A stretch of DNA of 36,965 nucleotides from Deltaproteobacteria bacterium (GTDB lineage: Bacteria > Desulfobacterota > Desulfuromonadia > Geobacterales > Pseudopelobacteraceae): assembly GCA_019162745.1 (NCBI GenBank), contig JAFLLC010000228.1:1-36965 (forward strand), in the 5' to 3' direction. The position numbers were made by a program, and so were the translations under genes. The notes beneath the pieces are model-generated. The model ran no database searches. It saw only the letters and a program-made list of their open reading frames with translations, and was not told the DNA's origin. Shown one piece after another: positions 9,810 through 34,232 of this stretch; the stretch's first letter is position 1; each line of letters opens with the position of its first letter.

Positions 9810-9810
9810 A

Positions 9811-11997: not shown

Positions 11998-13932
11998 ATG
12001 TTACGAATGAAAGATATTTATAAATTTTATACGGGGGTTGATAGCTTCTTTTACGGTCTTTACGGATGGTATAAAAGAACGGAATTTTCTACAACCCACT
12101 TAAGAAAAGATGCCACAACGGTTTACAATTATTCTTTATCATTGGCTGAACTGGATGACGAAGAGCTTTCAGCAAAAATTCAAACTCATAGAAGACCTTC
12201 GCGAAATGACGCCGAAGAAGTCTCGGCATATTATGTAATGGGTCTGCTCTGTGAGGCGTGTTACCGAGTTCTCGGCATAAGGCCGTATATTGAACAGATA
12301 ATGGGAGCGTTGGCAATTAACCGGAATGTTGCTATTCAGATGCAAACCGGGGAGGGTAAGACCATTACTGCCGCTATTGCCGCCGTGATGGCCGCGTGGG
12401 GTGGCGGCCCGTGTCATGTTGTCACCTCCAATGATTATCTGGCTAAAAGGGATGCGGAGCTAATGCGACCTCTCTATGAACGGTGCGGGTTGTCAGCCGG
12501 CTACGTTATTTCCGGCATAGAGCCGCCTGAACGCAGGAATGCATATAAACGGGACATCGTCTATTCGACAAGCAAGGAGTTGCTGGCGGATTATTTGCGT
12601 GACAGGATGTCGGAAGATGCGGAATCCGCGATTACCTGTGAGGGGATCCGTGCACTTGTTTCCGATGGTGCTGTTAGTGGCAAAGTGATGCGTGGACTTC
12701 ATACTGCGATTATTGATGAAGCCGACAGTGTGTTGATTGATGAGGCAACCGTGCCGCTTATCATCGCTGTTTCCGGCAGTAGCCCTCTTTTAAATGAGGC
12801 AGTCAGAACGGCTTTTGCCATTTCCGAGGAACTTGAGCAGGGGCGGGATTATCTTGTCAGCCTGCAGGCGAAATATGTCTCTATTACCGGATCCGGCAAT
12901 GAAATAATTGAAGCCACTGCTCACCGATTGCCTGCAGCCTGGAGAAACAGTGACCGCTCATCGTATCTGGTAAAACAGGCAATCATAGCCCGGTTCTGTT
13001 ATCACCGCGACGTCCATTATGTGATTGATCAGGGGAAAATTGTTATTGTTGATGAAAAAACCGGTCGTATGATGGACGGCAGAAGTTGGAGCGGCGGTTT
13101 GCATCAGGCGATTGAAGTAAAAGAGCATCTTGAAAATTCTGATCCTACCCATGCTCACATCAAGATGAGCTTTCAAATGTTTTTCAGGTTGTATGATAAT
13201 CTTGCCGGGATGAGTGGGACTCTGCAAAACGTAGAGAAAGAGCTCTGGACGGTATACAATCTGCCGGTCGTGAAAATTCCGACACATGCACCTAAAAAAC
13301 TGCTTTGTTACCCTGAAATAGTTCTGAAGTCGTACGAAGATAAATGGTGTGCGGTTATTAAAGACATCAAACATCATACATCTCGGGGGAGGGCTGTTCT
13401 GGTCGGCATACGGAGTGTCAGGGAGAGTGAGGCACTCTACACGCGATTGTTGGGGGCGGGTATTCCCTCAACTGTTCTGAACGCTCTTCGTCACGAAGAA
13501 GAAGCGCGCATTATCGCCGATGCCGGCAGATGGGGACAGGTAACCATTGCGACAAACATGGCAGGTCGAGGGACCGATATCGTCGTTGATAAAGAGGTGC
13601 TTGCGGCTGGCGGATTGCACGTTATCGCCACGGAGCGTCACGAGTCGCGCCGGGTGGATATGCAGCTGTTTGGTCGAACCGCCCGTCAGGGTGACCCCGG
13701 TAGCGCCCAAATGATTGTCAGTCTGGACGATGAAGTCATAAAAATATTTTCCCCCACACATTTAGCTCCTCTTTTAAAAACCCTGGTACATTCCCGTGGT
13801 CGCATAAATGTTGCTGTATGGTGGTTTCAAGCGGTTCAGTTCTTTGCGGAAAAATCAATATCCCGTTTACGAAAAAAGCTCCTGCAACAGGATCTGGCAC
13901 TGAGCAAGGCGTTGTCCTTTACCAAATATTAA
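11998..13932 (+). CDS. Short SecA-like (SecA2-type) protein-translocation ATPase
   Basis: A 644-residue SecA homologue. The DEAD-motor signatures are complete: MQTGEGKT (115-122), DEAD (240-243), a VDEKTGRMMDGRSWSGGLHQAIE linker region, LAGMSGTL, TNMAGRGTDI (about 519-528) and GRTARQGDPGS. Housekeeping SecA is about 900 residues with a helical scaffold/wing and a Zn-binding tail. Here only about 70 residues follow the second motor domain and no C-terminal cysteine cluster is present. It therefore looks like a dedicated accessory motor that powers export of particular substrates from the cytosolic face of the inner membrane. ATG 12007 is an alternative start (residue 4). Its position after the adaptor and protease genes, with no ABC transporter nearby, argues that it supplies the ATPase for that machine. 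Confidence 0.85.
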   Translation: MLRMKDIYKFYTGVDSFFYGLYGWYKRTEFSTTHLRKDATTVYNYSLSLAELDDEELSAKIQTHRRPSRNDAEEVSAYYVMGLLCEACYRVLGIRPYIEQIMGALAINRNVAIQMQTGEGKTITAAIAAVMAAWGGGPCHVVTSNDYLAKRDAELMRPLYERCGLSAGYVISGIEPPERRNAYKRDIVYSTSKELLADYLRDRMSEDAESAITCEGIRALVSDGAVSGKVMRGLHTAIIDEADSVLIDEATVPLIIAVSGSSPLLNEAVRTAFAISEELEQGRDYLVSLQAKYVSITGSGNEIIEATAHRLPAAWRNSDRSSYLVKQAIIARFCYHRDVHYVIDQGKIVIVDEKTGRMMDGRSWSGGLHQAIEVKEHLENSDPTHAHIKMSFQMFFRLYDNLAGMSGTLQNVEKELWTVYNLPVVKIPTHAPKKLLCYPEIVLKSYEDKWCAVIKDIKHHTSRGRAVLVGIRSVRESEALYTRLLGAGIPSTVLNALRHEEEARIIADAGRWGQVTIATNMAGRGTDIVVDKEVLAAGGLHVIATERHESRRVDMQLFGRTARQGDPGSAQMIVSLDDEVIKIFSPTHLAPLLKTLVHSRGRINVAVWWFQAVQFFAEKSISRLRKKLLQQDLALSKALSFTKY

Positions 13933-13958
13933 ACAATGACGCGGTTTTCAGAGGAATC

Positions 13959-14300
13959 ATGAAAAGGTTTATACTACTGGGCATGGCTGCTGTATTTTGT
14001 CTGTTGTGTGCTGGTTGCGGAGATGCCGGTTCCGACCAGCCGACGAGTTATGTCGGCGTGTTTAAATCTGTCAGCACATCCAATGACAAGATTGTTATGC
14101 TCACCATTACCAAGGATGATGGCACTCTGTATGAAGGTACGATTGATACCCTTCCGATCAAGGGGACATGGGGGATTGCTGAAAGTGACGCTCTTGGACT
14201 GATAACGAATCAGCTGAATAAAGGGTACGACAAATATTTTATTTATTTTTCCCTGGATATCGGCGGGTCAGCCATTTCCGGAACGGCTTACAGGCAGTAG
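13959..14300 (+). CDS. Small secreted lipoprotein of unknown function
   Basis: Start ATG 13959 has a good ribosome site (GAGGA, 13951-13955). The 113-residue product begins MKRFILLGMAAVF, with a lipobox-like CAGC placing the lipidated Cys at position 20. The -3 residue is Cys rather than the usual Leu, so lipidation is likely but not certain. The mature part is about 93 residues, with a YVGVFKS...MLTITKDDGTLYEGTI pattern suggesting a small beta-sheet domain that I do not recognise. It is 26 bp downstream of the SecA-like gene and probably the last gene of the export operon. It might be an accessory or surface-retention factor. An inverted segment (cccg...cggg, 14328-14344) after the stop is too weak to call a terminator. 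Confidence 0.7.
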   Translation: MKRFILLGMAAVFCLLCAGCGDAGSDQPTSYVGVFKSVSTSNDKIVMLTITKDDGTLYEGTIDTLPIKGTWGIAESDALGLITNQLNKGYDKYFIYFSLDIGGSAISGTAYRQ

Positions 14301-14442: not shown

Positions 14443-14964
14443 CTATAATTTTGGATAAAGACGCGCTAATCTGATCCGAGCGTCTGATGTTGTGAACTGC
14501 CAGTTAATTTTTTTAGTACGGTTGTTTCTTTCTTTTTCCCCTGCGACCACTGCCGTCTGGATGGTCGGCATACCTGGAATCCGGCGATCAAGGCACTGTC
14601 CCTTAAGGACGCTGAGTTCAATCTCCGCCATGTTCAGCCAGCTGCCATGCTTGGGTGTGTAATGTATGTCAAGTCGTTCCGCCAGTCTTCTGGCCTCTTT
14701 TGGTTCAAATGTTTCGTAGAGTGAGGCGATACTGTGAGTATTCAGGTTATCCATAACCAGACGTACCTTGATCGCATCAGGATAGCGTTCGTCGAGCATC
14801 TGCTTGATCTGCAACGCCCAATCTTTTCTGGTTCGGTGTTCTGTGATAGCAACGTGTCTCTTGCCGCCCAGAGGTTCCACTTCCTTAAAGATTTCTACCA
14901 CTCCGTTTCTGACGTATTCATCGTCAACACGTACCGGGTGTCCCGTATAATCGTAAGCTATGAT
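14443..14964 (-). pseudogene. IS630-family transposase, C-terminal fragment
   Basis: The minus-strand frame is open from 14964 (stop TAG at 14965-14967) down to TAG at 14443-14445; the longest ATG-initiated part starts at 14901. The encoded 173 residues match the C-terminal half of an IS630-type DDE transposase: YDYTGHPVRVDDEYVRNG, VMDNLNTH (second catalytic Asp), HYTPKHGSWLNMAEIELSVL (catalytic Glu) and a terminal ARIRLARLYPKL. The first catalytic Asp and the N-terminal helix-turn-helix region (roughly half of a normal IS630 transposase) are missing, so it cannot be active. No clear terminal inverted repeats were identified. The broken end faces the radical SAM operon, whose first start codon is only 19 bp away. 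Confidence 0.85.
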
Positions 14965-14983: not shown

Positions 14984-16186
14984 GTGCTGCAAGCCAATCA
15001 TCACCCAAATGAACTTTCAACCAGTGGTAACAGCTTGTCCGCCCATGGAATATTCATCTTAAATACCAGCAAGCGCTGTGAGTCAAACGCACTCTTGTTT
15101 TCCCAGGCTCTCATTTTTTTTGTCGTCAATGGTTACCAGATCAGCCGTGATATTGATCGCTGTAGCATAATACTTATCAACACCTGCTGCGTCTCGGAAG
15201 ATAAAATCGAAACATCTTTGTCCGCTCTGGCCTTGGCCAAGCCCTATGCTGAACAGAAACAGATCGTTCTTCTGGGGTGTCTTGCCACGCTCCCGACGGA
15301 GCGTCTGGAACGGCACCATCTGATCTGCATCGGCCCCAAGGATTTGACCTCTCTCGACAACTATTTTGAACATCATGTTTCTATCCATGACATCCCGGTA
15401 AATCATCTCCCCCCGGAATTGTTCACCTCAGGGCAGGGCCTGGGAGGACGTGACTACTATATTCTTATCGCCCAGGGTTGTTCCAACCACTGTTCATACT
15501 GTAATATCAAACGAGCAAAGGGAAGTGTGAGAAGCGAGCCGATCGTGGTGATTTGTGATCAGGTCAGGCGCGGACTTAGTCGCGGAGTGAGAGAGTTTTC
15601 TTTCCTGGCTGATGATTGTGGCAGTTACGGTGACGATATCGGCACGGATCTGCTGCAGCTTATTGAGACAGTGCTCCGGATTGCCCCCGACTTTACGCTC
15701 AAACTGCTCTACATATACCCGGATTTTTTACATAGGCGCTTTGGCGATCTAAAGAGAATATTCCAATCGGGAAGAATCGGCTATGCCCATATTCCGGTAC
15801 AGTCGGGATCACAGCGGCTGCTGAATTTGATGAGCCGAAACTATGACATCGCTGCGGTTATGAGCTGCATAAGCCAACTGCGTAACATTTCACCGCAGAC
15901 AAAGCTGGTTACCCATATCTTGGTCAACTTCCCCACTGAAACGGAGGAGGATTTTCTCGCTTCTCTTGCCGTAGCCGCCGCCTTTGATGATTCAATCTTT
16001 TTGCAGTTTTCCGAAAACCGGGAAACCGGTGCTGCAATACTGTATCCGAAGGTCACTGGACAGGAAGCAAACGCACGTCTTGATGCCGCCTCCCGGTTTG
16101 TCAATCAGCGCGTAACCGGCAGCGGCTGCGTCATTTCAGACTTCAACTGCACGACTCCCTATAACATTTTGAAGGGACAACGGTAA
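14984..16186 (+). CDS. Methylthiotransferase-like radical SAM protein without TRAM domain, paralogue 1
   Basis: Start is GTG 14984, preceded by GAGGTGA at 14974-14980; no in-frame ATG fits better. The 400-residue product follows the MiaB/RimO/MtaB layout. An N-terminal UPF0004 domain carries the three cluster cysteines (RCESN, NTCCV, LLGCLA). The radical SAM motif CSNHCSYC gives C166, C170 and C173, and DDCGSYGDDIGTD resembles the MtaB/CDKAL1 branch that makes ms2t6A in tRNA. The chain stops about where the C-terminal TRAM domain would begin. TRAM binds tRNA in family members, so the substrate may be something other than tRNA. Known family chemistry inserts a methylthio group at an unreactive carbon. 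It is first in the operon, and the next start is 5 bp after its stop. Confidence 0.75.
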   Translation: MLQANHHPNELSTSGNSLSAHGIFILNTSKRCESNALLFSQALIFFVVNGYQISRDIDRCSIILINTCCVSEDKIETSLSALALAKPYAEQKQIVLLGCLATLPTERLERHHLICIGPKDLTSLDNYFEHHVSIHDIPVNHLPPELFTSGQGLGGRDYYILIAQGCSNHCSYCNIKRAKGSVRSEPIVVICDQVRRGLSRGVREFSFLADDCGSYGDDIGTDLLQLIETVLRIAPDFTLKLLYIYPDFLHRRFGDLKRIFQSGRIGYAHIPVQSGSQRLLNLMSRNYDIAAVMSCISQLRNISPQTKLVTHILVNFPTETEEDFLASLAVAAAFDDSIFLQFSENRETGAAILYPKVTGQEANARLDAASRFVNQRVTGSGCVISDFNCTTPYNILKGQR

Positions 16187-16190
16187 CCCC

Positions 16191-17747
16191 ATGCCTCTAC
16201 CCCAAGTGAAAGTAGTTCAGTTGACCTTAACAAACCGCTGTCAATGCAATTGCCTGCATTGCGGCGTGTCGGGGCTTCGCCAAGTTGTCAGCGATGAACT
16301 CTCCCTGGAACAGATTAACGCCATTTTTCCGGAACTGAAGCATGCGGGATGCCAGATCATCGATCTGTTCGGGGGGGAACCGACACTGCGGAACGACCTC
16401 TTTGAGATCATCTCTCTCGCCAAATCTTTTGGCTTCATTGTGTCGCTGGAGACGAACGGCCTGCTGCTCGATGACACATATATTCAACGCCTAGAGAGGG
16501 CGGGGCTTGACCAGATCTATCTGAGTCTTGATGACTACCGAGCGGAACAGCATGACTTGCAGCGAGGCAAAACCGGAAGTTTTGACCGAGCCTTACGGGC
16601 ATTAGTGGCAGGTGCGAAGAGTCGCATCATCATGCATGTGTCTGTTGTGCCAAGGTCGCGCGAGTTTTTTGAAAGTGGGGACATCAACCGATATATGCAA
16701 TTTGTTCTTGACCATGGTGCCAAGCAGGTGCGGATGCTGTTGCCCCGGTTTGTCGGCGATTCGACCGGGGCGGCGGGGGGGAACCTTGGATCGGGATCTG
16801 AACGGGAACTCTTTGCCCATGTTGATCCCTGTTTTGCCGACTATCTGTATGTCCATACGCCGGGGACGCCGCTTGGGGAGAACAATGTCTGTACGGCCAA
16901 ACATGTGTTCTGCCATATCATGAGTAACGGCTGGGTTGCCCCGTGCCCCTATTTCCCCCTGGTGTTCGGCGACGCTACTCGCGAACCGCTGGTTGATGTT
17001 TTCGAACGGATCCAGTCTCACCCGCTTGTGCGGCTGGGAGGACAATTCTGTCCGATGCGGAACGAAGAGTACCTTGATGAACATATCAACAAACTGCTGA
17101 AGGATAGCCCGTTCCACCAGATCTACGTTGAAAATCAGATAGATCTTGGTGCCCCCTGTCTGCAGGGGTGTAGCGGTTGTTCTTATGGCGATATTGTGGA
17201 GGCAAGACCGGTGGCGGAGCTGTTGCGAGAGGTACATCAGCTTGATCCGGAATATTGCCAGGTTGAGTTCTTTGGTGGCGATGCGCTGCAGCATGATGAT
17301 CTTTTTGTAATTCTTGATGCGTTACCATCCAAAATTAAAGTGACGCTGTGGACATCAGGGCGCCAGGCGGAGCATTCCGAGGACTTCTGGAGGCGGTTGC
17401 GTTCCTATCGTATCAACGCCGTCAAAATCCTGCTGCCGCTGGACCTCACCGCTCATGGCGCCACCCCGGACAGCCGGTTCGTTCTGGAAAACGCCCTGCA
17501 TACCATACGAACGCTTGTCGATAACAGAATCCCCGTTTATCTTTATTTGCCAATGGTAAACCTGCAGGCTCCCCAGTCACTCGGCAAACAGCGTCTGTTA
17601 CGTTCCGGAGTCGAACGGATTTATGCCTTTGCCCGTGACGAAGAAAAACCTTTATCCAATGCGGTTGCCTGTTTTGGCCGGGAGTTGGGGAGGGTCAGGT
17701 TATTATGGGCACAACAGCAGGATCGCCTGCCCAGGGTTCCGCAATGA
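16191..17747 (+). CDS. Tandem (two-domain) radical SAM protein with SPASM/twitch-like cysteines
   Basis: A 518-residue protein. Domain 1 has CQCNCLHC (C17, C21, C24), the SAM-binding FGGEPTL motif and LETNGLLL, followed by cysteines around 240-300 (VCTAKHVFC, VAPCPYF, QFCPMRN) that look like a SPASM or twitch auxiliary-cluster region. At residues 323-330 a second CxxxCxxC motif occurs (CLQGCSGC: C323, C327, C330), followed by FFGGDAL and LWTSGRQ at the spacing expected of GGEP and TNG in a radical SAM barrel. The second barrel is about 190 residues, so probably partial or regulatory. Radical SAM/SPASM enzymes often modify ribosomal peptides (established for the family); the substrate here is unknown. 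ATGA overlap with the next gene. Confidence 0.78.
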   Translation: MPLPQVKVVQLTLTNRCQCNCLHCGVSGLRQVVSDELSLEQINAIFPELKHAGCQIIDLFGGEPTLRNDLFEIISLAKSFGFIVSLETNGLLLDDTYIQRLERAGLDQIYLSLDDYRAEQHDLQRGKTGSFDRALRALVAGAKSRIIMHVSVVPRSREFFESGDINRYMQFVLDHGAKQVRMLLPRFVGDSTGAAGGNLGSGSERELFAHVDPCFADYLYVHTPGTPLGENNVCTAKHVFCHIMSNGWVAPCPYFPLVFGDATREPLVDVFERIQSHPLVRLGGQFCPMRNEEYLDEHINKLLKDSPFHQIYVENQIDLGAPCLQGCSGCSYGDIVEARPVAELLREVHQLDPEYCQVEFFGGDALQHDDLFVILDALPSKIKVTLWTSGRQAEHSEDFWRRLRSYRINAVKILLPLDLTAHGATPDSRFVLENALHTIRTLVDNRIPVYLYLPMVNLQAPQSLGKQRLLRSGVERIYAFARDEEKPLSNAVACFGRELGRVRLLWAQQQDRLPRVPQ

Positions 17748-18856
17748 GAGTAAAGATCGAAAACCTGCACAATATGTGCGAAAACAATACCCATTCCCTC
17801 ACCAGGGTCAGGAACTATTTTCTGGTCAACGGCCACACGGTATCGGATGCTGATTCTGCCGCCGATATGGTGTTCGTTGGCGGTTGTACGGTTACGGACC
17901 TGATGCGTGTTCGTTGCGTACGGAATATTGTCAAGATGATGCGGGAGCAACCGGAGGCGCAATTCGTCGTATTTGGCTGCCTGTCTGCTTTTCCGGAAGA
18001 GTTGAGGACCATGGCTGCCTCAGAGCTGAAGCGCCTGCACATTGTCACCTATCAGGAGTGTCATGCGCTGGACCGCCTGACCGGTGCGCGGATCCCATTC
18101 CAGGCGGTCAGCGCCAACCTGTTGCACGGTCATGTTCCCTACCAGTACCGGATCGGGCCGTCGGACTCCTATGTCCTGATTGCCCAGGGGTGCGGCAATG
18201 ATTGCAGTTACTGCAATATCAAGAAGGCCAAGGGGTATGTCGCGAGCCGTTCAATAGAGGTGATTGAGGAGGAAGTCCGCGAGTTATGCCGGAACGGCGT
18301 AAATGTGATCACATTGCTGGGCGATGACTGCGGTTCTTACGGACTTGATATCGGTACTGATCTTCCTGCCTTACTGACTCGCCTGGCCTCAATTTCTCCC
18401 GCTTTGAAGTTCAAGCTGTTCACTATATTTCCTTCCCTGTATCTGCAGTATGCCAGTCAGCTTGAACCTTTTTTCGCCAGCCGCCGTATCCCGTACGTAT
18501 GTTTGCCGGTTCAGTCCGCTGCTCCGAGAATTCTCGAACTGATGAACCGCAGCTATGATCCCGACCTCCTGGCCGACGCTATTGCCACAATTCGCTTTCT
18601 CGACCCGGAAGCCTACATATATTCTCATTTCATATACAATTTTCCAACCGAAACACGTGAGGAGTTGGAACTGAGCGTCGCTTTTTCCAGATACTTTGAT
18701 CACTGCGTGTTTATCGCCTATGGCGAAAACAGTGCCACGCGCGCGGCTGGGATAACTCCCAAGGTGAGTCGGCAGGAATGTGACGCCAGAACCGTTTATC
18801 TGAAAGAGCTGATACGGCAGAAGCGCCTGACAGCGTTTTTGGTGCCGCAAACATGA
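17744..18856 (+). CDS. Methylthiotransferase-like radical SAM protein without TRAM domain, paralogue 2
   Basis: The 370-residue paralogue of the gene at 14984. ATG 17744 is preferred over 17705 because it overlaps the preceding stop (ATGA) and has AGGG upstream. UPF0004-type cysteines are MCENN, GGCTVT and FGCLS; the radical SAM motif CGNDCSYC gives C150, C154 and C157. The DDCGSYGLDIGTD signature and the LIAQGC and YCNIKKAKGYV stretches are shared with paralogue 1 (LIAQGC, YCNIKRAKGSV). TRAM is again absent. NTC is replaced by GGC at the second N-terminal cysteine, a departure from the usual N-T-C. The two paralogues probably descend from one duplication and may act on different positions of one substrate or as a pair. 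Confidence 0.75.
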   Translation: MRVKIENLHNMCENNTHSLTRVRNYFLVNGHTVSDADSAADMVFVGGCTVTDLMRVRCVRNIVKMMREQPEAQFVVFGCLSAFPEELRTMAASELKRLHIVTYQECHALDRLTGARIPFQAVSANLLHGHVPYQYRIGPSDSYVLIAQGCGNDCSYCNIKKAKGYVASRSIEVIEEEVRELCRNGVNVITLLGDDCGSYGLDIGTDLPALLTRLASISPALKFKLFTIFPSLYLQYASQLEPFFASRRIPYVCLPVQSAAPRILELMNRSYDPDLLADAIATIRFLDPEAYIYSHFIYNFPTETREELELSVAFSRYFDHCVFIAYGENSATRAAGITPKVSRQECDARTVYLKELIRQKRLTAFLVPQT

Positions 18857-19776
18857 TGTCGCGCGAGAGCCAAGGTAACGGTATTGATCTGTCAAGATAT
18901 GCGGTTATACCGGTCTGGTATAGCTGCAACAATGATTGCAGTATCTGTATGCTGGCCAACGTAAAGCATAAACTTGGTACAGTGAAACCGGAGGCGTTCC
19001 GGTCATTGGTGCGCGGACTCGTTAAAGATGGCCGCTATGACGGCCTGATCCTTTCCGGTGCCGAGATCACAACTTTTGAGTATCTTGAACGGTATGTCAA
19101 AGAAGCTTCTTCTTACGGCCGGTTTAATAAAATTCAGCTCCAGACTAACGGTCGGCGGCTGGCGGATCGTGACTACGTGCACCGCCTTGTCGATGCCGGT
19201 GTTAACGAGTTTTTTGTCAGTGTCCACGGTCTTGAGCCGGTTCATGACGCTATTACCCGCGTACCGGGCTCATTTCGGGAGACCATGGCCGGGATCGTGA
19301 ATCTGAGCAAATTTCCGGTAAACATAATCACGAATACAGTCCTGACTCGCTGCAATTACCATGGAATTGTGCCGCTGCTGCGCCTGCTCTGCGACGGTCC
19401 GATATGCGAACTGCATATGTGGAACTATTTCCCCATGGAGCGGAGCGATACGCAGGATATGATAGTAAGCATGCACGATGTTATGGCGCTGTTTCCCGAT
19501 GTTGTGAAAATATTGCTTGCCACCGGTAAACAGCTGGCTCTGAAAGGTTTTCCAGAGTGCATTTCCCCCGGTGCCCCCTGCTTTGTTGATAGTCGATTTC
19601 CGCTCAATCTGATTCAGGATGACTTCTGGTCAGAATTTGGCAAAAACGGTTTTGCAACATGTTGTTTTCGGGAAATATGTACCTCTAAAAGGTGTTGGGC
19701 CTTATCCCGCGCCTATATTGAAAAATACGGAGATGAACACCTGATTCTGACACCTCGCACAGGAGGACAGCAATGA
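18853..19776 (+). CDS. Radical SAM protein with C-terminal cysteine cluster
   Basis: A 307-residue radical SAM enzyme: CNNDCSIC at residues 25-32 (C25, C29, C32), then LILSGAEITT in the GGE position and LQTNGRRL in the usual later strand. The GGE motif is degenerate (SGAE). A C-terminal group of cysteines (PECISPGAPC, then ATCCFREICTSKRC) could bind one auxiliary Fe-S cluster, as in SPASM/twitch proteins, but the spacing is not canonical. The start ATGATG (18853 or 18856) overlaps the preceding stop, and its own stop overlaps the following ATG by 4 bp, so it is made with its neighbours. The substrate cannot be told from sequence. Confidence 0.78.
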   Translation: MMSRESQGNGIDLSRYAVIPVWYSCNNDCSICMLANVKHKLGTVKPEAFRSLVRGLVKDGRYDGLILSGAEITTFEYLERYVKEASSYGRFNKIQLQTNGRRLADRDYVHRLVDAGVNEFFVSVHGLEPVHDAITRVPGSFRETMAGIVNLSKFPVNIITNTVLTRCNYHGIVPLLRLLCDGPICELHMWNYFPMERSDTQDMIVSMHDVMALFPDVVKILLATGKQLALKGFPECISPGAPCFVDSRFPLNLIQDDFWSEFGKNGFATCCFREICTSKRCWALSRAYIEKYGDEHLILTPRTGGQQ

Positions 19777-20642
19777 CCGGAACACCTTTTGCGCTCGAAT
19801 ACGCTTCAAATAACGAGCGGCTGATGAACTATTGTCTGGCCGAGTACCCACCCGTGGCCCCCACCGCCGGGATGCTCAGATCGTCGAACCTGCTATTCCA
19901 AACGTTTGTCGATACTGTTGATAGTGAAAAACAGTTCAAGCTTGTGGAACTGATCAGAGCAGCATTTGGTGAATCCAATGCCGTTTGGGGGGTCAAATGG
20001 GATGGAAACGAAATACGTTGGGAATATTATTTTTACGATTACCGCCGCCGCATGCGCGAGAGATCAATTTCCCTGTTCATCGATGCTATCTCAACTCTGG
20101 CTGTCTGCCCCGTAGCAATCAACGAAAATCTGCACTACTTCATGTTTTCCATCGATATTGACCAACAACTCCTGAATTCAGGGCAATTGAATGAGATCCA
20201 TATGTATATGGGCAACGTATTAAGCAGGTACGGGTCAGGGATCTGCTATTCGTTGACAGCGAGTGGGAAACGTTTGGAAAATTTCTATTTCTTCCTTGAT
20301 GCCCATAAGAATATCGAGGCTATCATCGTCAAAATCTGCCACTCAGCAGTTGTAGACGTAGATAGACAAAATGTTGGCATCATTTTGTGGCCTGAATTGG
20401 CAAACTGCCGCATCATCTGTATTGCAAACAAACAGCAAAACGATTGCATCTACTTCTCAGGCATTACGATCCACCAGCTGCTGTTCTTTCTTCGTCGGCT
20501 AAACTATCCGGCTGACGTCATCTCGTACATCGACGCCAACAAGGCACAGCTGGATTATATGCTCTATGATGTCGGCTTTGATTATCGAATGGAGGGGGGC
20601 GAATTGCTGATCGTCAAGAGTGGCTATTATGGCATTTTCTGA
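19773..20642 (+). CDS. Unrecognised protein, possibly ABBA-type prenyltransferase-like fold
   Basis: 289 residues with a strong ribosome site (AGGAGG, 19761-19766) and a 4-bp overlap with the previous stop. No signal peptide, transmembrane segment or metal motif. The chain has repeated 'G-x-x-(W/S)-x-(D/S)-G-x-x-(hydrophobic)-x-x-x-(Y/F)-F' beta-hairpin units: VWGVKWDGNEIRWEYYF, ICYSLTASGKRLENFYFF and a last YDVGFDYRMEGGELLIV unit. By eye the final 50 residues (LRRLNYPADVISYI...) align with the end of the large protein at 22697 (CRHYNIPAHQAESYF...). The order of units recalls cyanobactin PatF/LynF-type aromatic prenyltransferases as I remember them. This is a weak, unverified resemblance; I would otherwise call it hypothetical. 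Confidence 0.5.
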   Translation: MTGTPFALEYASNNERLMNYCLAEYPPVAPTAGMLRSSNLLFQTFVDTVDSEKQFKLVELIRAAFGESNAVWGVKWDGNEIRWEYYFYDYRRRMRERSISLFIDAISTLAVCPVAINENLHYFMFSIDIDQQLLNSGQLNEIHMYMGNVLSRYGSGICYSLTASGKRLENFYFFLDAHKNIEAIIVKICHSAVVDVDRQNVGIILWPELANCRIICIANKQQNDCIYFSGITIHQLLFFLRRLNYPADVISYIDANKAQLDYMLYDVGFDYRMEGGELLIVKSGYYGIF

Positions 20643-21678
20643 TCCGGAAGCGGGTGAACTGCAATTCGACTATCTGCTGGTAGACGCCTTCATCGTCGAC
20701 CTGGTGTCTGCGCGGGCGCTGTCGTCGGCCCTTGAAATGGGCGTAGTCGATCTGTTTCTTGACCATGGCCGGTTGACTGTCGCAGAGTTGCAACAGAGGG
20801 TCACTTTTGAACCGAGCTGCATAAAATTGTTCCTGGATCTGCTTATCCATGCCGGGGTGATTGCCGGAGATAATGAGGGGTACGTTCTGACCCCCCGTTT
20901 TATGAAGGTGCTGCCTTACCGGGATCTGCTGGTCGCCAAACTCGATTTTGCCCATTTTGCGGCCCATGATTTTATTGACTCATTTTCGTTCATGATTTCC
21001 GATGTCCGTGCGTTCAGAAAGCGCGCCGGGATGTTCCGCTTGTTCAATTACGGCAACAGTACGGTGCAAACGCCCGAAAACCACCAGCGCACCATGAAGT
21101 GGATGCGGATAACAACGGTGCTGACCAAGTATGAGGCACAGGCATGCTTCTCTAAACATAGCTTTTCAGGCTATCGCCATATGCTTGACATCGGCGGGAA
21201 CAGCGGTGAATTCGCCCTCCAGGCTTGCAGAAACTACCCTGAATTACGGGTGACTGTCTTTGACCTGCCGGTGGTTTGTGATATCGGGCAACAACACCTC
21301 GCCAAAGAGCCGGAATCGGGCAGAATAACTTTTACCCGTGGCAATGCATTGGTCGAAGTGTTGCCGGCAGGTTTCGATCTCGTTACGTTCAAGTCTGTGC
21401 TGCATGATTGGCCGGAACGGGAGGCCCTCATGTTTCTCGACAAGGCGTGCCGTGCCCTGCAAAAGGGAGGAACAATTCTGGTCTTTGAACGGGGAGCGTT
21501 TGAGACCGGTGCGTCAGGGCTTCCATATTCGCTCATCCCGATGGTGCTTTTTTCCCACACGTTCCGCACTCCGGAATGGTACTGCGATTACCTTGCGGCG
21601 CACGGCTTCGTCTCGATTTCAGTGCAGTGGGTTCGTCTGGACGTGCCTTTTATGCTCGTAACGGCAGTAAAAGAGTAA
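20629..21678 (+). CDS. SAM-dependent O-methyltransferase (COMT/AcsN-like)
   Basis: A 349-residue class I methyltransferase of the Methyltransf_2 type. Residues 1-110 form the helical dimerisation/winged-helix part (ALSSALEMGVVDLFLDHGRLTVAELQQRV is typical). The SAM-binding glycine loop LDIGGNSGEF is at 186-195, an acidic end-of-strand VFDLP follows, and HDWPE (259-263) holds the His that acts as general base in family members. These enzymes methylate hydroxyl groups on aromatic or polyketide-like substrates. Two starts are possible, GTG 20620 and ATG 20629; AAGAG at 20616-20620 favours ATG 20629. Either way the start lies inside the preceding gene, giving a 14-bp overlap. It may methylate a hydroxyl introduced by another enzyme of this operon. 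Confidence 0.8.
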   Translation: MAFSDPEAGELQFDYLLVDAFIVDLVSARALSSALEMGVVDLFLDHGRLTVAELQQRVTFEPSCIKLFLDLLIHAGVIAGDNEGYVLTPRFMKVLPYRDLLVAKLDFAHFAAHDFIDSFSFMISDVRAFRKRAGMFRLFNYGNSTVQTPENHQRTMKWMRITTVLTKYEAQACFSKHSFSGYRHMLDIGGNSGEFALQACRNYPELRVTVFDLPVVCDIGQQHLAKEPESGRITFTRGNALVEVLPAGFDLVTFKSVLHDWPEREALMFLDKACRALQKGGTILVFERGAFETGASGLPYSLIPMVLFSHTFRTPEWYCDYLAAHGFVSISVQWVRLDVPFMLVTAVKE

Positions 21679-21702
21679 TGCTCCGGCTGGAGTTGTGAAC
21701 AA

Positions 21703-22704
21703 ATGCATATAGACCCTCGGTCTGATCGCCCTCCCATATCCCGTTTGACCCTTCAGGTCACTGATGCCTGCAACCTGCGGTGTGTCTACTGTTTCAGCGG
21801 GGAAAAGGGGTGTGCCGATACATTCGTTTCGGAAGAGGATTTTGGTTACTTCCTCGGCTTCTGCCTGAGAAACGGTATGCGTGGCATCCGTCTTACCGGC
21901 GGTGAAACCATGTTGCATCCGCATCTGCACCGGTTTGTCCACCTTGCGGTCCAGGTGGGTATGCCGGTGCATATTTTCTCAAACTTCACCCTGAAGGACT
22001 GTCTCAACGCGTTTGACGTTCCGGGAAAAGCCTTAAGTTTTCTCGTCAATGTGAATGACAGAGATACTTATGACAGCAGTGCCTGGGATAATCTGACCAA
22101 AAACCTGGAACTGGCTGCGAGCTGCGGTTATTCGACTGTTCTCGGCTACACTGTCCATGAGGTCCCGTTTAAAATACCGCATATTATGCAATTGGCCGCA
22201 GAGTACTGCGTACAAAAAATCCGGATCTCACCAGCCAAGCCGACTATCGGCGCAGGCAAAAACCGGTGGCTGAAATCTGACGAAATGCGGGCATTTGCCG
22301 AGTCAGCCATGCAATTGTCGCAGGAATTAAAATCGGTCGGCAGGCTGCTCGTACTGGATTGTCCCATTCCGTTTTGCCAGATTCCTCAAGAGCATATCCA
22401 CTTTTTTACCAAGGAGCTGAAGCTGACCGGTAAATGTGATTTTGGCACCTCGGTTAATGTGAACCTTGAGGTAGGCCACTGCTACGTCACCAACTCACTG
22501 CTTGCGAAACGGCCGCTCAGCAGTTTTCGCAACGCATTTGAGATGCTTGATTATAAACTGGGATTAGTGCGGGAACTGGATCTTCTCTACCCGCCGTTAT
22601 CCACATGCGTGGGGTGCCGCTTCTTGGCACAGGGGGTATGCGATGGTGGCTGTTATGGTACGCGCCATCAGGCCATCGTTGGGCGGGAGGTTTCTCATGA
22701 TTGA
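21703..22704 (+). CDS. Radical SAM/SPASM-domain protein
   Basis: 333 residues with a textbook radical SAM start: CNLRCVYC (C23, C27, C30), IRLTGGETMLHPHL and FSNFTL. The C-terminal part carries SPASM-like cysteines (KCDFG, VGHCYV, STCVGCRFLAQGVCDGGCYGTRH), including the CxxC...C...C pattern that holds auxiliary [4Fe-4S] clusters. SPASM proteins are mostly peptide-maturing or other protein-modifying enzymes (PqqE, AlbA and anSME are family examples). The ribosome site GGAG at 21689-21692 is 10 nt from the ATG. The stop overlaps the next gene by 8 bp. A methionine at 22643 inside its 3' end also opens a frame but is not the likely start of the next gene. Confidence 0.82.
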   Translation: MHIDPRSDRPPISRLTLQVTDACNLRCVYCFSGEKGCADTFVSEEDFGYFLGFCLRNGMRGIRLTGGETMLHPHLHRFVHLAVQVGMPVHIFSNFTLKDCLNAFDVPGKALSFLVNVNDRDTYDSSAWDNLTKNLELAASCGYSTVLGYTVHEVPFKIPHIMQLAAEYCVQKIRISPAKPTIGAGKNRWLKSDEMRAFAESAMQLSQELKSVGRLLVLDCPIPFCQIPQEHIHFFTKELKLTGKCDFGTSVNVNLEVGHCYVTNSLLAKRPLSSFRNAFEMLDYKLGLVRELDLLYPPLSTCVGCRFLAQGVCDGGCYGTRHQAIVGREVSHD

Positions 22705-25700
22705 TATGGACTCCAGCGGCCCGGCCATGCACGGGAAAGCCCCATCCTTACTTGATCTTGGGATGCGGCTGCATGTGCCGTACAACAATGATTTTGGTCT
22801 GATCAATAAGCTCATCCCATATGCGCCATATATCAGATCAATTTATCTCCCTTGCAACCATAACGTGCTCGGATCAGGCCGAAACGAGGGTAGGGCCACC
22901 AACAGGAACTGGGATAGCTATGATGCCGAGGTGAAGGATATCGCGAAAATAGTCGCTCCCCACGGTATCAAGGTGAATATGCTCCTGAACTCCTTGCATG
23001 TTTCAGCTGACATTCTCAATAATTTTCATAGCTCTGCACTGTATCGCTATCTTAAAGAGTACGAATTCAGCGATGTTGAATGGTTGACAGTGGCGAACAT
23101 ACAGTTGGCGATGCTTTTGCGGCGGCATTTCCCACGTTTTAAGCTGGATGTCTCGGTGCTTGCCCTGATTGATTCGGTCAAAAGAGCCCAGTACTGGTAC
23201 GATCTGGTCTGCCCGGATCTCTTCTGTCTTGATCTTGATCGAAGCAAAGATCTGCATTTGATCGAAAATATCACCTTGCGTACCGGAGTGCCGGTAAAGG
23301 TGTTGGTTATGGACTTTTGCCTGCCGGACTGTCCCTACAAGCCGTGGCATTATATTCACAATGCCCTGAAAGAAGAGAATCCCTTCAGCTGCTGGCAGCT
23401 TAGGGCTGACAAGCCCTGGTACTATTACAAGGGGAGGAGCATCCCTCCTTATTATCTGGGCCGCTACGCCGGGTTGATTCATGATATTAAAATTGTCGAG
23501 CGCAATTCGGATAGCGAAACAATACTCCGGAACGTTCTCCATTACGCTAAACAGAGTGATTCTCGATATATGCTCCCTGATGGAGGCATTGTACAAGCGG
23601 GAGTTATGCCTCCTGCCATATCGCCAAGTGTCGATAAACTGTATTACAATCTCAATTCAAAGCATCCGCTGTTTAAGCCGCTCCCTGACAATGTCTTCGA
23701 ACGGACCCTCGGCTGCGACCTGAACTGTGGGAACTGCACCTTTTGTTATGACGTCTGGAAAGTTGAATGGCAGGTCCGGGAAAACTATGAACTTCTCGCC
23801 GGATATGTGCGGGAAATGTTTCCTGATCCGGCCTCGCAGCGTTATTATCTTGGCCTGCTTGATAACCTTCACGGCCAGCGTCATAATGTTGCATTTATTG
23901 CTGCAATCAGGGCGATGGAGGAGTACGTGGAAGAACCGTTCCGAACGGTGCTCGACTACTTCCTGGGGCTCGCATTAATTGAACTGAAAAATCCTTTGGC
24001 TGATGTCTATATCAAGCGCCTGAATGTTCCAGAACTGTGTGAACATCTGCGTCAGATGCAGGTCGTTTGCCGTGGTCAAGAGGTCATCACTTATACCGAC
24101 TTTGATCCATACGATAAGAATTCATTTGTCTATCTGCGGCAGTTGGCATTGGATGCGAGCTCAGACAGTTCCGCTCGCTATAACCTGATAGAATCATATT
24201 TAAGGATGCGGGAGGAGAATACTGCTCAAGAACTGCTGGAATCAGTTGAACTGGATGAAGAGCTGCTCAAGAGGTTCTGTCTGGCCGCCTTTGATTCCAG
24301 TTGCTATGATATCGTAATCCTGCTGACTGAGCATCTTGAAAACGTTGCCGGTTTATCTGCCCCGTTATGTGCCAGATTCTCTGTTGTCAGGCAGTTTTCG
24401 AGGTTGGTGAAGGGGATGGCCCAAGAGGAGGGCGCTCCCCGTGTTTTTGGGACATCCAGCAGCTATAGTCAGAAAGAAAACTTTGCCCATCTCTTTCTGA
24501 ACAGTATGTGCAATGGTATCAGGCCAAACCGACACGAATTGGAAGTGCTGGCGGTATATTGCGTAACCCTGCAAACAGAGAAATCCAGAGCGTTTGCCAA
24601 GATGATCTATGATTTCTATTTGACGCTTTTCCCGGATCAGCTGAAGATCTTAACTAAATTCCAGGAGCTCTTGTTCGATATGAACAAGAGAACAGAGGCT
24701 GATGAGGTCAGCAAGTTGATTGATCGGCTGAACCTGAAAAACAGGGGCGAATTGAACCAGTTATCTGACGTGAAATTATCTTTGAACGGGCAAACATATA
24801 TGACAAATACTCCGGCAGCGCAACAGGAACAGTTTTTATTTGTAGATGCGCCACCGCTGGTGCGGAAAAAGGAAACGGATAGATTCAGAGGACATCCGGT
24901 CAGTAAGCGGATGCTTGAACTGATCGATACTCTCGGCGGCTGCTACCGTGTCGAACGCTCTTTCAAATTCACACGTAACCATCTCCTCTGTAACCGCTTT
25001 ATCGTGACGGTTCCCCTGCGGGAAGGCACTGTCTGCCATAACCAGGCCGTCTCAATAATTTGCAGGGAACTGGCTATGCCAGAGTCCTACTGTAATTATT
25101 TTGTCCAACAAATTTTGACCGCAAAAAAGGTTCATTTCGGCTTTGAGGAAAATGGTAAAGATTGTGTTCTGAAGGTTTATCTGGAATTTCCTTATGACCA
25201 CTCACAGCAGCTGCAGGCAGTGTCACTCTCCGATCCGTGGCTGTTGTTGCTGGGGTTTAAGTGGGATCCGTATGCACCCGGAGTCAGACGTGTCATTAGT
25301 CGTTACTCTGGACTTCCTTCATACACTCCGCAGCAAGTCCATGCCCTGGTTACAGAGCGATTTCCGCATACACAGGGCGGTATCATTTTGCCATTGGTTA
25401 CGTCTATTCTCAAGATGTATGACAATAGCGCACCGAACATGCCGATGTGGTATCTTGATGTCACTGAAGAGGGAACGCCAAGACAGTCCTTTGATGTCAA
25501 AACATATCGAGCAAGGTTGCAAATCTCACATGTTTTGCCGATGTTGCGGGATTTATGCCGACATTACAATATCCCAGCCCATCAGGCTGAAAGCTATTTT
25601 AATACCATAAAAGGGCACAAATTCGGCCATCTGTCGTGTGGCATTGGCAGAGATGGCGAAGAATATATTGCCATTTATCATGAAGTTTTTGGTCAGAGCA

Positions 25701-25717
25701 AGTCATCATTGTTATAA
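22697..25717 (+). CDS. Large fusion: U32-like Fe-S domain, cysteine motif, helical linker, prenyltransferase-like C-terminal domain
   Basis: About 1006 residues from ATG 22697, chosen for GGGAGG 6-7 nt upstream; the frame also opens at 22643. Residues 1 to about 330 resemble U32 'peptidase' family TIM-barrel proteins: VMDFCLPDCPYKPWHYIHN (C208, C212), FSCWQL, and GRYAGLIHDIKIVERNSD near the end. Several family members (UbiU/UbiV, RlhA, TrhP) are O2-independent Fe-S hydroxylation enzymes. At 340-350 lies CDLNCGNCTFC, with CxxxCxxC spacing but no following radical SAM barrel. Residues about 380-700 are mostly helical, TPR-like. Residues about 735-1000 contain VHFGFEENGKDCVLKVYLEF, LLLLGFKWDP and MPMWYLDVTEEG, which resemble PatF/PagF-type ABBA prenyltransferases as I recall them; the same fold seems present in the protein at 19773. 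Function unknown. Confidence 0.6.
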   Translation: MIDMDSSGPAMHGKAPSLLDLGMRLHVPYNNDFGLINKLIPYAPYIRSIYLPCNHNVLGSGRNEGRATNRNWDSYDAEVKDIAKIVAPHGIKVNMLLNSLHVSADILNNFHSSALYRYLKEYEFSDVEWLTVANIQLAMLLRRHFPRFKLDVSVLALIDSVKRAQYWYDLVCPDLFCLDLDRSKDLHLIENITLRTGVPVKVLVMDFCLPDCPYKPWHYIHNALKEENPFSCWQLRADKPWYYYKGRSIPPYYLGRYAGLIHDIKIVERNSDSETILRNVLHYAKQSDSRYMLPDGGIVQAGVMPPAISPSVDKLYYNLNSKHPLFKPLPDNVFERTLGCDLNCGNCTFCYDVWKVEWQVRENYELLAGYVREMFPDPASQRYYLGLLDNLHGQRHNVAFIAAIRAMEEYVEEPFRTVLDYFLGLALIELKNPLADVYIKRLNVPELCEHLRQMQVVCRGQEVITYTDFDPYDKNSFVYLRQLALDASSDSSARYNLIESYLRMREENTAQELLESVELDEELLKRFCLAAFDSSCYDIVILLTEHLENVAGLSAPLCARFSVVRQFSRLVKGMAQEEGAPRVFGTSSSYSQKENFAHLFLNSMCNGIRPNRHELEVLAVYCVTLQTEKSRAFAKMIYDFYLTLFPDQLKILTKFQELLFDMNKRTEADEVSKLIDRLNLKNRGELNQLSDVKLSLNGQTYMTNTPAAQQEQFLFVDAPPLVRKKETDRFRGHPVSKRMLELIDTLGGCYRVERSFKFTRNHLLCNRFIVTVPLREGTVCHNQAVSIICRELAMPESYCNYFVQQILTAKKVHFGFEENGKDCVLKVYLEFPYDHSQQLQAVSLSDPWLLLLGFKWDPYAPGVRRVISRYSGLPSYTPQQVHALVTERFPHTQGGIILPLVTSILKMYDNSAPNMPMWYLDVTEEGTPRQSFDVKTYRARLQISHVLPMLRDLCRHYNIPAHQAESYFNTIKGHKFGHLSCGIGRDGEEYIAIYHEVFGQSKSSLL

Positions 25718-26346: not shown

Positions 26347-28992
26347 ATGAACATCAAAATTATATTTGTCATATTTTTGTTTACACTTTCAGCATGCAAC
26401 AGCAAGACAAAAGATGAATTATATGCTCAGGGAATCAAACAGCTTGAGGCTTCAAATCCGGGCGGTGCAGTTATCCTGTTCAAGAGTGCTCTGGAGCAGG
26501 ATGAAAACTATCTGGACGCCCGCTTTCAGCTGGCTAAATGTTACGCAAAGTTGGGTAAGCTGGAACAGGCAGAAAAAGAGTTCAACAAAGTCCTCAAGCA
26601 GAATCCCGCCCGGGACGAGGTATTGATTGAATTGGCCGGTGTTCTTAATGCTTCAAAAAAGGGAGACGAGGCCTTCAAACTGGGACAACAATATCTTGCC
26701 ATACACCCCGGCAGTGCCGAAGGTTTTGAAGTCCTCGGGATCGCCAGTGCAGTAAATAAACGTTTTGACGATGCTGAACGGTATCTGCTGCAGAGCGTTG
26801 CGGCTGATCAAACCCGTGCGAAAACCAAGCTGGAACTTGCCGCCGTGTATGTCTCTGTCGGCAAAGAGGCAAAAGCAAAAGACCTTCTGAATGAACTGAT
26901 CAGGACAGATCCGAAAAATGCACGACCACTCTTTATGCTTGCCGCCATGGAAACACGAGCCGGTAATAGAGACAAGGCCCTGGAAATATATCATACGATA
27001 ATGGTAAACCACCCCGAAGAGGCGGTTGCTTCGTACAAAATCGGAATTATCCATATAGAGAAAGGGGATCTGGATAAAGCCGACAAGACAGCCGATGATC
27101 TGTTGAGCAGGTTTCCAAAGCGGGCAGACGGACACCGCTTGAAGGGGCTTGTCAGTTATCATCGGAAAAACTATGCCGAAGCGATGAACTATCTGCAAAG
27201 CTCCCTAAAAATTGCACCGACACTTGAAGCATACCATTTTCTCGGACTCTGTTATTATAATCGCGGTGAATTGGAAAGCGCCCTGAGCCAGTTCCGTATA
27301 ATCCTCGATCATGTTCCTGACTCACGCCAGGCCCGTCTGATGACCGGCACGATTCTGCTTGCCCAGAAACGGCTTGATGACGCCGTAACTGAAATTCAGA
27401 AGGTGCTGCAAAAAGACGACAGGGATGCTGTGGCCCATAATCTGCTTGGTAACGCATATATGGCCAAAGGCATGTTTGAAGATGGTATGCGTGAGTTTAA
27501 CAAAGCGACAAAGATTGACCCCAAGATTGTCGACGCCTATCTGAAAAAAGGGTATTTCTATTTCAGCCGTGGAAAAAACGTCGAAGGCGAAACGGAGCTT
27601 ACAACCGCTGTCCAAGCTGCGCCGGATGCTCTGAACAGCAGATTGCTGCTGGCCTCATACCATCTCAGATCTGGAAAAGGTGACAAAGCGCTCTCAGTTC
27701 TAAAATCCGGTTTGACCGGCAAAAAAAGTGACGCTTTCCTCTATAACAGCATAGCGGCGGTGTACTTCTCGCTGAACAATCAGGGTGAAGGGCTGAAAAG
27801 TATCCAAAAGGCCAAGGATTTGGACCCTGCCTTTCCCGCTTCGTACCAGAATATGGCGACTTATTTTATTGCTACGGGTAAATACGATAAAGCGATCGCC
27901 GAGTACACCGCCCTGTTGCGTAACGTTCCGACGAATGTCCAGGCGATACTCGGCCTGGCCGGGTTGTATGAAATTAAAGGCAATGACAATGAAGCGCTTG
28001 CGTACTACCAGAAAGCCGTGGACACAAAGCAGCCGGCGGCATTTATGGCAAAGGCCGGTTATCACCTGAAAAAGCGGGAAAATTCCAAGGCACTCAAGGT
28101 GCTGGATGAAGCGCTGGAAATTGATGCCAAAAACGTCGCAGCGCTGGAAATGAAAGGGCGGCTGCTGGTCAGCGATAAAAAATACAAAGCTGCGCTCAGA
28201 GTTTTTGAAGACGTTGAAGCGATCAACCCTGAGGCCGGTATAGCGCTGAAAATAGGCGCGTATGTCACGATGAAGGACACTGAAAAGGCGGTTGAGCAGG
28301 CGCAGAAGATTATTGAAAAATATCCGAGCTCGGCACGGGGCTATATGGTCCTTGGCTCTATCTACGAAAGCCAGAAAGATTACGCCCGTGCCATCGGCGA
28401 AGTTAAAAAGGGTCTCCGGGTGGATGGCAATAATCCTCAGGCGTTTGTCTATCTGGGAAATCTTTATGAAGCGTCGCGTGATTATACTCAGGCAATGACG
28501 GCATACGAGGAAGCCTGCCGTAAAAAACCGGATTTTGTGCCGGCACTCTTTGCTCAAGGGGCGCTTCTCGACCAGAGCGGAAAAAAGAAAGAGGCCGTGA
28601 GCAAATATAGAACCGTACTCGAAAAATCGAATAATTATGTGCCGGCACTCAACAATCTTGCCTATCTCTGCGCCTCGGGTTACGGCAGCAAGGAAGAAGC
28701 ACTGAGGCTGGCGATTACCGCGTTCAAGCGGGAAGCCGGAAACGCCGGCATAATGGACACACTTGGTTTTGCCCTGCTCAAAAACAATCGCCTCGAAGAC
28801 GCCAAAAAAGTACTGGAAAAAGCGGTCAGCATGTTGCCGGATAACCCTACCGTAACGTATCACCTCGCTCTGGCATATAAAGAATCAGGGGATAAGCCAA
28901 ATGCCCTGAAAACTCTGCAAAAAGCCCTGAAACAGGGAGATTTTGCCGATGCAAAGGCCGCTGCGTTACTTGTTGCCGAACTGAAAAAATAA
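26347..28992 (+). CDS. prsT: PEP-CTERM/XrtA-system TPR-repeat lipoprotein PrsT
   Basis: An 881-residue lipoprotein. The signal sequence MNIKIIFVIFLFTLSAC has a perfect LSAC lipobox with Cys17. The rest is an unbroken chain of about 23-25 TPR units of 34 residues; recurrent patterns are LDARFQLAKCYAKLGKLEQAEKEFNKVL and FVYLGNLYEASRDYTQAMTAYEEA. The length and architecture match PrsT (the PEP-CTERM-system TPR lipoprotein family), which accompanies exosortase A and its exopolysaccharide genes. TPR lipoproteins usually act as periplasmic scaffolds for secretion or assembly of polysaccharide. Followed by a TTG-started glycosyltransferase 11 bp later, so probably first in the operon. No frameshift or truncation seen. 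Confidence 0.88.
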   Translation: MNIKIIFVIFLFTLSACNSKTKDELYAQGIKQLEASNPGGAVILFKSALEQDENYLDARFQLAKCYAKLGKLEQAEKEFNKVLKQNPARDEVLIELAGVLNASKKGDEAFKLGQQYLAIHPGSAEGFEVLGIASAVNKRFDDAERYLLQSVAADQTRAKTKLELAAVYVSVGKEAKAKDLLNELIRTDPKNARPLFMLAAMETRAGNRDKALEIYHTIMVNHPEEAVASYKIGIIHIEKGDLDKADKTADDLLSRFPKRADGHRLKGLVSYHRKNYAEAMNYLQSSLKIAPTLEAYHFLGLCYYNRGELESALSQFRIILDHVPDSRQARLMTGTILLAQKRLDDAVTEIQKVLQKDDRDAVAHNLLGNAYMAKGMFEDGMREFNKATKIDPKIVDAYLKKGYFYFSRGKNVEGETELTTAVQAAPDALNSRLLLASYHLRSGKGDKALSVLKSGLTGKKSDAFLYNSIAAVYFSLNNQGEGLKSIQKAKDLDPAFPASYQNMATYFIATGKYDKAIAEYTALLRNVPTNVQAILGLAGLYEIKGNDNEALAYYQKAVDTKQPAAFMAKAGYHLKKRENSKALKVLDEALEIDAKNVAALEMKGRLLVSDKKYKAALRVFEDVEAINPEAGIALKIGAYVTMKDTEKAVEQAQKIIEKYPSSARGYMVLGSIYESQKDYARAIGEVKKGLRVDGNNPQAFVYLGNLYEASRDYTQAMTAYEEACRKKPDFVPALFAQGALLDQSGKKKEAVSKYRTVLEKSNNYVPALNNLAYLCASGYGSKEEALRLAITAFKREAGNAGIMDTLGFALLKNNRLEDAKKVLEKAVSMLPDNPTVTYHLALAYKESGDKPNALKTLQKALKQGDFADAKAAALLVAELKK

Positions 28993-29003
28993 CAGAGGCC
29001 TCC

Positions 29004-30395: not shown

Positions 30396-30428
30396 GTAAT
30401 TAACCTGGTAAAATTTATAAGGAAACTG

Positions 30429-31235: not shown

Positions 31236-31267
31236 GTCCCAATAGCAATATAACTGCGGAGAACTAG

Positions 31268-32728: not shown

Positions 32729-32799
32729 CGGTGGAGCGGTATGTGACTGGCAACTGAACTAATTCCAACTATAGCATTAGTCCTATAAAAAACATCTTA

Positions 32800-32934
32800 A
32801 ACACGGAGACACGGAGAACACGGAGTAACATCTGAGAATTACAGGTAAATAAGAAGCCTTATCGTTCACCAAAAAGGTATTATTGTTTAGATCTTAAGTC
32901 ATTGATTTCTCAGTGTTCTCCGTGTCTCCGTGTT
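32800..32934. repeat. Intergenic inverted repeat of the 'acacggag' family, element 1
   Basis: Positions 32800-32821 are the exact reverse complement of 32913-32934 (22 bp). The arms enclose a 91-bp AT-rich centre with no ORF. The element fills most of the 248-bp gap between the chain-length gene and the kinase gene and could fold into a long hairpin in the transcript. Related 'acacggag' sequences recur near 33930, 34040-34090 and 36810, so this is an interspersed repeat family. Confidence 0.8.
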
Positions 32935-32976
32935 ATTGAACTGTCTAGCTTAATTTATCCAACAACAAGGTGGAAC

Positions 32977-33819: not shown

Positions 33820-33840
33820 AGCGGAGAAAGGCATTATTAT

Positions 33841-34153: not shown

Positions 34154-34232
34154 TTAAAAGACTGAAAACTTTTGTTGGAACCGCAGTTGAACACTTTATC
34201 CCTGTTAATTGATTTAACTGGAGTTAGCACGA

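Follow-up and report, generated by a model that had tools for sequence, protein, structure and literature searches.

Enzymes of the ABBA prenyltransferase superfamily are described from cyanobactin pathways (LimF, PagF, KgpF and PatF) and from tryptophan prenylation (CymD, 5-DMATS, FgaPT2 and TleC), the latter not known to be tied to an exporter. In DMATS, Arg100, Asp178 and Lys187 belong to the donor site, and the last two are replaced in the apparently inactive PatF (PMC3668578). In TleC the residues named are Arg119, Lys187, Arg248 and Arg378 with Tyr252, Tyr317 and Tyr382 (PMC4786772). The other systems closest to the locus studied here are the MiaB/RimO methylthiotransferases, RiPP systems with PqqD-like leader binding and an M50-type protease (e.g., daptides), type I secretion through HlyD and TolC, and the LEPR-XLL giant proteins (NCBIfam NF012209).

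We analysed a 36,965-bp contig (JAFLLC010000228.1, hereafter the window, meaning the whole stretch of DNA analysed) from the 4.5-Mb genome of a Deltaproteobacteria bacterium of the Geobacterales (GCA_019162745.1, hereafter G000; other G-numbers denote genomes, L-numbers denote loci and C-numbers denote contigs). The genome is in the same genus as G106, G076 and G088 (likely corresponding to the Geobacteraceae contigs CAIRBT010000105, MGZJ01000055 and JANXZX010000056), and a further relative, G071, matches PJFB01000001 of Geobacter sp. The original prediction described eight tightly coupled genes (A to H) with five radical SAM proteins bearing six CxxxCxxC sites, an O-methyltransferase, a U32-like Fe-S domain and two proteins of possible ABBA fold, and this observation was confirmed. 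The junctions from A to H were a gap of 4 bp, overlaps of 43, 4, 4 and 23 bp, a gap of 24 bp and an overlap of 62 bp, thus six of seven overlapped or lay within 5 bp. Some overlaps shrink if internal starts are used, as the alignments of F and H to the nearest relative (G106) began at residues 17 and 18, and C has an internal ATG. The coordinates were right, but linked genes extend upstream to the contig edge.

Features of the window and their supporting evidence.
Feature	Position	Strand	Description	Evidence
Giant	1..5403	+	C-terminal part of a long repeat protein (candidate cargo)	Frame open to base 1 at the contig edge; no Pfam or NCBIfam match
TolC	5411..7117	+	TolC-type outer membrane channel	OEP match; TolC model below its cut-off
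HlyD	7114..7917	+	HlyD-type adaptor	Profile matches
GAF-HlyD	7947..9809	+	GAF-HlyD adaptor	HlyD match; GAF just below cut-off in the window, above it in L036
M50-HlyD	9778..11967	+	PqqD-like / M50 protease / HlyD fusion	Peptidase_M50 match; weak PqqD-like match
PqqD-like domain	9811..10107		Start of the M50-HlyD protein	Also in relatives, including loci without E
SecA-like	11998..13932	+	Short SecA-like ATPase	SecA_DEAD, preprotein cross-linking and P-loop domains; no SecA_SW match
u6	13818..14300	+	Small putative lipoprotein	51% to a G106 protein (G106_17)
IS630	14443..14901	-	Transposase fragment (152 aa) between u6 and A	G106 has a B12-binding radical SAM gene here
A	14984..16186	+	MiaB/RimO-like radical SAM protein (add-on)	UPF0004 and Radical_SAM above cut-off; CSNHCSYC; TIGR00089 193.9 bits (cut-off 251)
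B	16191..17747	+	Tandem radical SAM protein (add-on)	Two Radical_SAM stretches; CQCNCLHC and CLQGCSGC; homologues in G106 and G071
C	17705..18856	+	Second MiaB/RimO-like protein (add-on)	UPF0004 and Radical_SAM; CGNDCSYC; TIGR00089 175.4 bits (cut-off 251); probable start 17744
D	18853..19776	+	Radical SAM protein, nearest model HxsC4 (core)	Radical_SAM above cut-off; CNNDCSIC; in 11 of 13 E-bearing loci
E	19773..20642	+	Predicted ABBA-fold protein (289 aa) of no known family, non-canonical donor site by register (core)	No NCBIfam match; two sub-threshold Pfam matches; model pLDDT 87.8
F	20620..21678	+	O-methyltransferase (core)	Methyltransf_2 plus O-MT dimerisation domain; in 12 of 13 E-bearing loci
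G	21703..22704	+	Radical SAM protein (add-on)	Radical_SAM above cut-off; CNLRCVYC; only window and G106 among 13 loci
H	22643..25717	+	Last protein of the run	
H, N-terminal part	22643..24712	+	Weakly U32-like region with Cys-rich motif, then uncharacterised region (add-on)	Only window and G106 among 13 loci
H_C	24713..25717	+	Predicted ABBA prenyltransferase-type domain, canonical donor residues by register (core)	No family match; model pLDDT 80.0
XrtA/PEP-CTERM	26347..36703		Exopolysaccharide genes following the operon	

In general, the run of genes is more than a chance arrangement, as all eight occur in the same order in G106. Protein identity between the two was 55–68% for A, B, C, E, F, G and H, with pN of 0.22–0.31 against saturated pS of 0.70–0.80, indicating purifying selection. 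D, located in G106 by tblastn, was 68% identical over 295 aa. A and C carry UPF0004 plus radical SAM domains as in MiaB/RimO methylthiotransferases, but both scored below the subfamily cut-off and had no TRAM match at E-values up to 0.05. The U32 match in H was weak (E-value 3.4e-4, 20.4 bits against a cut-off of 22.4, residues 132–188). It was below the cut-off in the window and in G106, and one of three related proteins tested from other genomes passed. No plasmid copies of H were detected at an E-value of 1e-5.

To evaluate the proposed ABBA fold, E was aligned from 11 loci (74 invariant columns) and H_C from 9, and the structures of both were predicted. Foldseek placed ABBA prenyltransferases on top for both, with LimF as the best hit (E-value 7.7e-7 for E and 2.3e-7 for H_C). 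VIA-align gave a best Z of 13.7 for E (rmsd 3.9, 248 aligned) and of 16.8 for H_C (rmsd 3.6, 254 aligned), the latter to CymD. The fold guessed in the original prediction is thus supported for both proteins by prediction and fold search. The cyanobactin enzymes shared only 9–15% identity in the listed alignments, and no cyanobactin family matched the window genes tested with NCBIfam. E and H_C showed no detectable sequence similarity to each other (hhalign probability 0.3) and are related by fold only. Profile searches against solved structures returned only hits with E-values of 0.3 or worse for H_C, E and the PqqD-like domain, and none for the H N-terminus, and no tryptophan prenyltransferase was matched by profile.

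The donor-diphosphate residues were compared hairpin by hairpin, by register on predicted strands rather than by superposition. H_C has R74 in the first hairpin, E124 and K133 in the second (nine apart, like Asp178 and Lys187 of DMATS), R176 and Y177 in the third, Y244 at the fourth and Y301 in the fifth. All are invariant in 9 of 9 rows except R176 (7 of 9). E has an invariant tyrosine in the second strand of each hairpin (Y86, Y145, Y172, Y227 and Y285), but no Arg/Lys at the first two donor positions. H_C thus looks competent, while E may be a partner, a pseudo-enzyme or a user of another donor, and we refer to E as an ABBA-fold protein and not as a prenyltransferase.

The original prediction did not consider the genomic context. 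We collected 13 E-bearing loci: the window, ten from a single scan of genome contigs with two short peptide patterns (four of which are G106, G076, G088 and G071), and G262 and G519 from a search of 395 genomes of the phylum. The list is a lower bound, and as L036, L037 and L038 are close relatives, the 13 loci are fewer than 13 independent cases. The quartet of D, E, F and H_C was complete in 11 of 13 loci, the other two (L032 and L037) being cut by contig ends. A/C-like genes occurred in 4 of 13, B in 3, G and the U32-like N-terminus of H in 2, and the B12 radical SAM gene in 2. The only matches to the latter in the window's genome were of at most 33% identity. The eight genes are therefore not the minimal unit, as relatives keep only the quartet.

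Genes for M50-HlyD, SecA-like or GAF-HlyD proteins lay in the same locus in 10 of 13 (the window, G106, G071, G076, G088, L031, L036, L037, L038 and G519). The exceptions were L032 (a 3,986-bp contig), L034 (7,852 bp) and G262, of which the rest of the contig was left out of the annotation. An RTX-like giant was found in 6 of 13, in addition to the long repeat ORF of the window (7 of 13 in total), a kinase-like protein in 8 of 13 (in L034 a fragment at the contig edge) and a stand-alone DUF3467 protein in 8 of 13. Unlike in type I secretion, a SecA-like ATPase accompanies HlyD and TolC, and no ABC transporter matched in the six upstream genes. The position of the cassette varied: after the exporter in the window, between SecA and HlyD in G088, after SecA-HlyD in G076, on the opposite strand in G071, between giant and exporter in L036, and divergent from it in G519. 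In G106 the order was TolC, HlyD, GAF-HlyD, M50-HlyD (across a contig break inferred from the two halves of that gene), u6, B12 radical SAM, A to H and SecA, and thus the whole run sits inside the exporter genes.

Repeat-protein frames without stop of at least 5,954 (G071) and 7,814 (G088) codons lay upstream of the exporter genes. Giants beside (G517) or near (G519, second locus) the same type of exporter carry the LEPR-XLL motif, whereas the N-terminus of the window's giant is not in the contig. A LEPR-XLL giant start (2,385 aa, open to the contig end) lies beside a SapC gene on contig C129 of G000 (3-7157 and 7293-8048, both on the minus strand), but no end overlap or protein similarity to the window's giant was found.

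E is rare, detected in 4 of the 395 genomes of the phylum sample. The ABBA part of H_C was matched in 6 of 395 (G000, G071, G257, G262, G338 and G519), and the other 52 of the 58 matched genomes matched only the DUF3467 part. M50-HlyD matches were found in 294 of 395 genomes, but most were short HlyD-type hits, and only 10 genomes had matches of 700 bits or more, of which 3 have E and 7 lack it. In relatives H_C bears an N-terminal DUF3467 domain (E-value 4.9e-14 in G262 and 1.8e-7 in L036), the family of the small stand-alone protein beside the exporter (1.5e-21). The window and G106 lack both, representing a single split and not independent support. H_C is doubled in one frame in G262 and occurs again, in pieces, in G519. 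In G338 it follows the exporter without D, E or F in the region examined. The distance matrices of E and H_C correlated with those of M50-HlyD, SecA and GAF-HlyD (Pearson 0.84–0.92, 7–9 loci), those of F at 0.81–0.84 and of D at 0.66–0.73. However, these were not corrected for shared descent, which alone could give much of this.

To seek evidence for a substrate, we searched 840 small ORFs (18–250 aa, outside the known genes) for a conserved precursor. The only families shared between loci were among the close relatives L036–L038 (one antisense ORF also in L031) and one pair, L033/L035, outside the cassette. The M50-HlyD proteins begin with a PqqD-like domain, with 9 of 9 members matching PF05402 with and without E in the locus. 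Each match was weak (best E-value 8.9e-5), the window protein scored below the curated cut-off (16.6 against 23.4 bits), and a profile of the domain hit no PqqD structure. The C-terminal motif of the giants (DRxSFxxL...RxRRFxxW, read by eye) was considered as the cassette's target but rejected, as it was present with E (G071, G088, G076, L031 and L036) and without E (G009, G343, G338 and G386, of which G338 has H_C). It was absent in the window, G262, G466 and G226, and the end of the G517 giant was not seen. The stand-alone DUF3467 protein was likewise rejected as a cassette-specific substrate, as its core was the same in both groups. Thus no cassette-specific target is seen and no target site can be named.

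Taken together, the region is best read as a modification cassette wired into an export locus for giant repeat proteins, a reading that we consider about as likely as not. In its favour are the two predicted ABBA folds, the donor residues of H_C by register, the co-location with export genes in 10 of 13 loci with the cassette at different places, the DUF3467 domain of H_C in relatives, the weakly matched PqqD-like domain of the M50-HlyD proteins, the lack of a conserved precursor peptide among the small ORFs searched, and the purifying selection. In this view, a ribosomal substrate of the export system, perhaps the giant protein or a segment cut from it, would be recognised through the PqqD-like domain of the M50-HlyD protein and, in most relatives, DUF3467 domains. 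D would make a radical modification, H_C would transfer a prenyl group with E as partner or second transferase, and F would methylate. In this lineage A and C may add methylthio groups, and B, G and the U32-like part may add further radical or oxygen-independent chemistry. The SecA-like ATPase, HlyD adaptors and TolC would then export the product and M50 would process it. Gene content, conservation and co-location were demonstrated here, whereas the ABBA folds and, by register, the donor residues of H_C are predictions, and all activities (including prenyl transfer), the order of steps, the identities of substrate, donor and product, and the direction of transport are inferred. Several findings weaken a strict link: G262 has quartet, giant and DUF3467 but no M50-HlyD match in its assembly, G257 has an H_C on a 9.8-kb contig without exporter genes and is not among the 294 matched genomes, most strong exporters lack E, and E lacks the canonical Arg/Lys positions.

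The interpretation in the original prediction, a candidate new pathway adding methylthio, hydroxyl, O-methyl and perhaps prenyl groups to a peptide or cofactor, was partly supported. The methylthiotransferase-like and O-methyltransferase relationships are real, and the homologues were found together, whereas homologues never found together had been set beforehand as a result that would refute the idea. However, hydroxylation rests only on the weak U32 match, and the cassette is not shown as a free-standing pathway. No conserved short precursor ORF was found among those searched, and the weakly matched PqqD-like domain of the export protease favours a ribosomal substrate, but a small-molecule or cofactor product is not excluded. 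No described pathway with this set was found in the open-access literature searched, nor any paper describing ABBA prenyltransferases, radical SAM modification and a SecA-like export route for giant proteins together. The parts belong to known kinds (ABBA prenyltransferases, radical SAM maturation and dedicated export), with a real chance that the system as a whole is new.

A bolder version is rather unlikely but not excluded: a maturation-and-export system of a new kind, in which giant exported proteins, or segments cut from them, would be decorated in the cytoplasm by the quartet (here also by methylthiotransferase-like enzymes), docked on the exporter through PqqD-like and, in most relatives, DUF3467 domains, and driven out by the SecA-like ATPase through HlyD/TolC. 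H_C would then be, as far as we know, the first ABBA prenyltransferase acting on a large exported protein, and E an ABBA protein with a changed donor site. If true, the link would extend enzymatic prenylation from small molecules and short peptides to exported proteins, give a role to DUF3467 domains and to an undescribed protein family (E), and suggest what modifies some very large proteins. The fold and donor-site results make it directly testable.

Among the alternatives, a small-molecule pathway survives best, though we consider it unlikely. Here the cassette would build a prenylated, methylated aromatic compound (cofactor, signal or meroterpenoid) from a metabolite, exported by the TolC/HlyD apparatus. 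Many of the fold hits act on free amino acids or small aromatics (CymD, DMATS and PriB), F belongs to a fold family common in small-molecule O-methylation, no precursor peptide was found, and G262 and G257 lack M50-HlyD matches. On the other hand, the co-location with a SecA-like protein exporter in 10 of 13 loci, the (weakly matched) PqqD-like domain on its protease and the fusion of DUF3467 to H_C argue against it, and no scaffold-forming enzyme is seen among the core genes. A RiPP pathway with a short or unusual precursor (very short, overlapping a known gene or encoded elsewhere) is less likely still. Radical SAM proteins, a PqqD-like domain and an M50 protease are typical of RiPP loci, and the window's M50 protein matched the daptide protease model (E-value 1.1e-45, below its cut-off). 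However, no small ORF family was shared beyond close relatives in a search that left out ORFs under 18 aa or largely inside known genes, and the recurrent other partners are the giant and DUF3467 proteins. A chance neighbourhood of two systems sharing a genomic hot spot, for which the IS630 remnant, the rarity of the cassette, G257 and G262 could speak, is very unlikely given the same partners in 10 of 13 loci with several gene orders, the cassette inside the exporter genes in G106 and G088, and the DUF3467-ABBA fusion.

In L034, a betaproteobacterial MAG contig, F, D, H_C and E lie near a RimO-like gene, suggesting transfer between phyla or mis-binning. A second, distant M50-HlyD gene is present in the genome of the window (contig C49, 6803-8359, minus strand).
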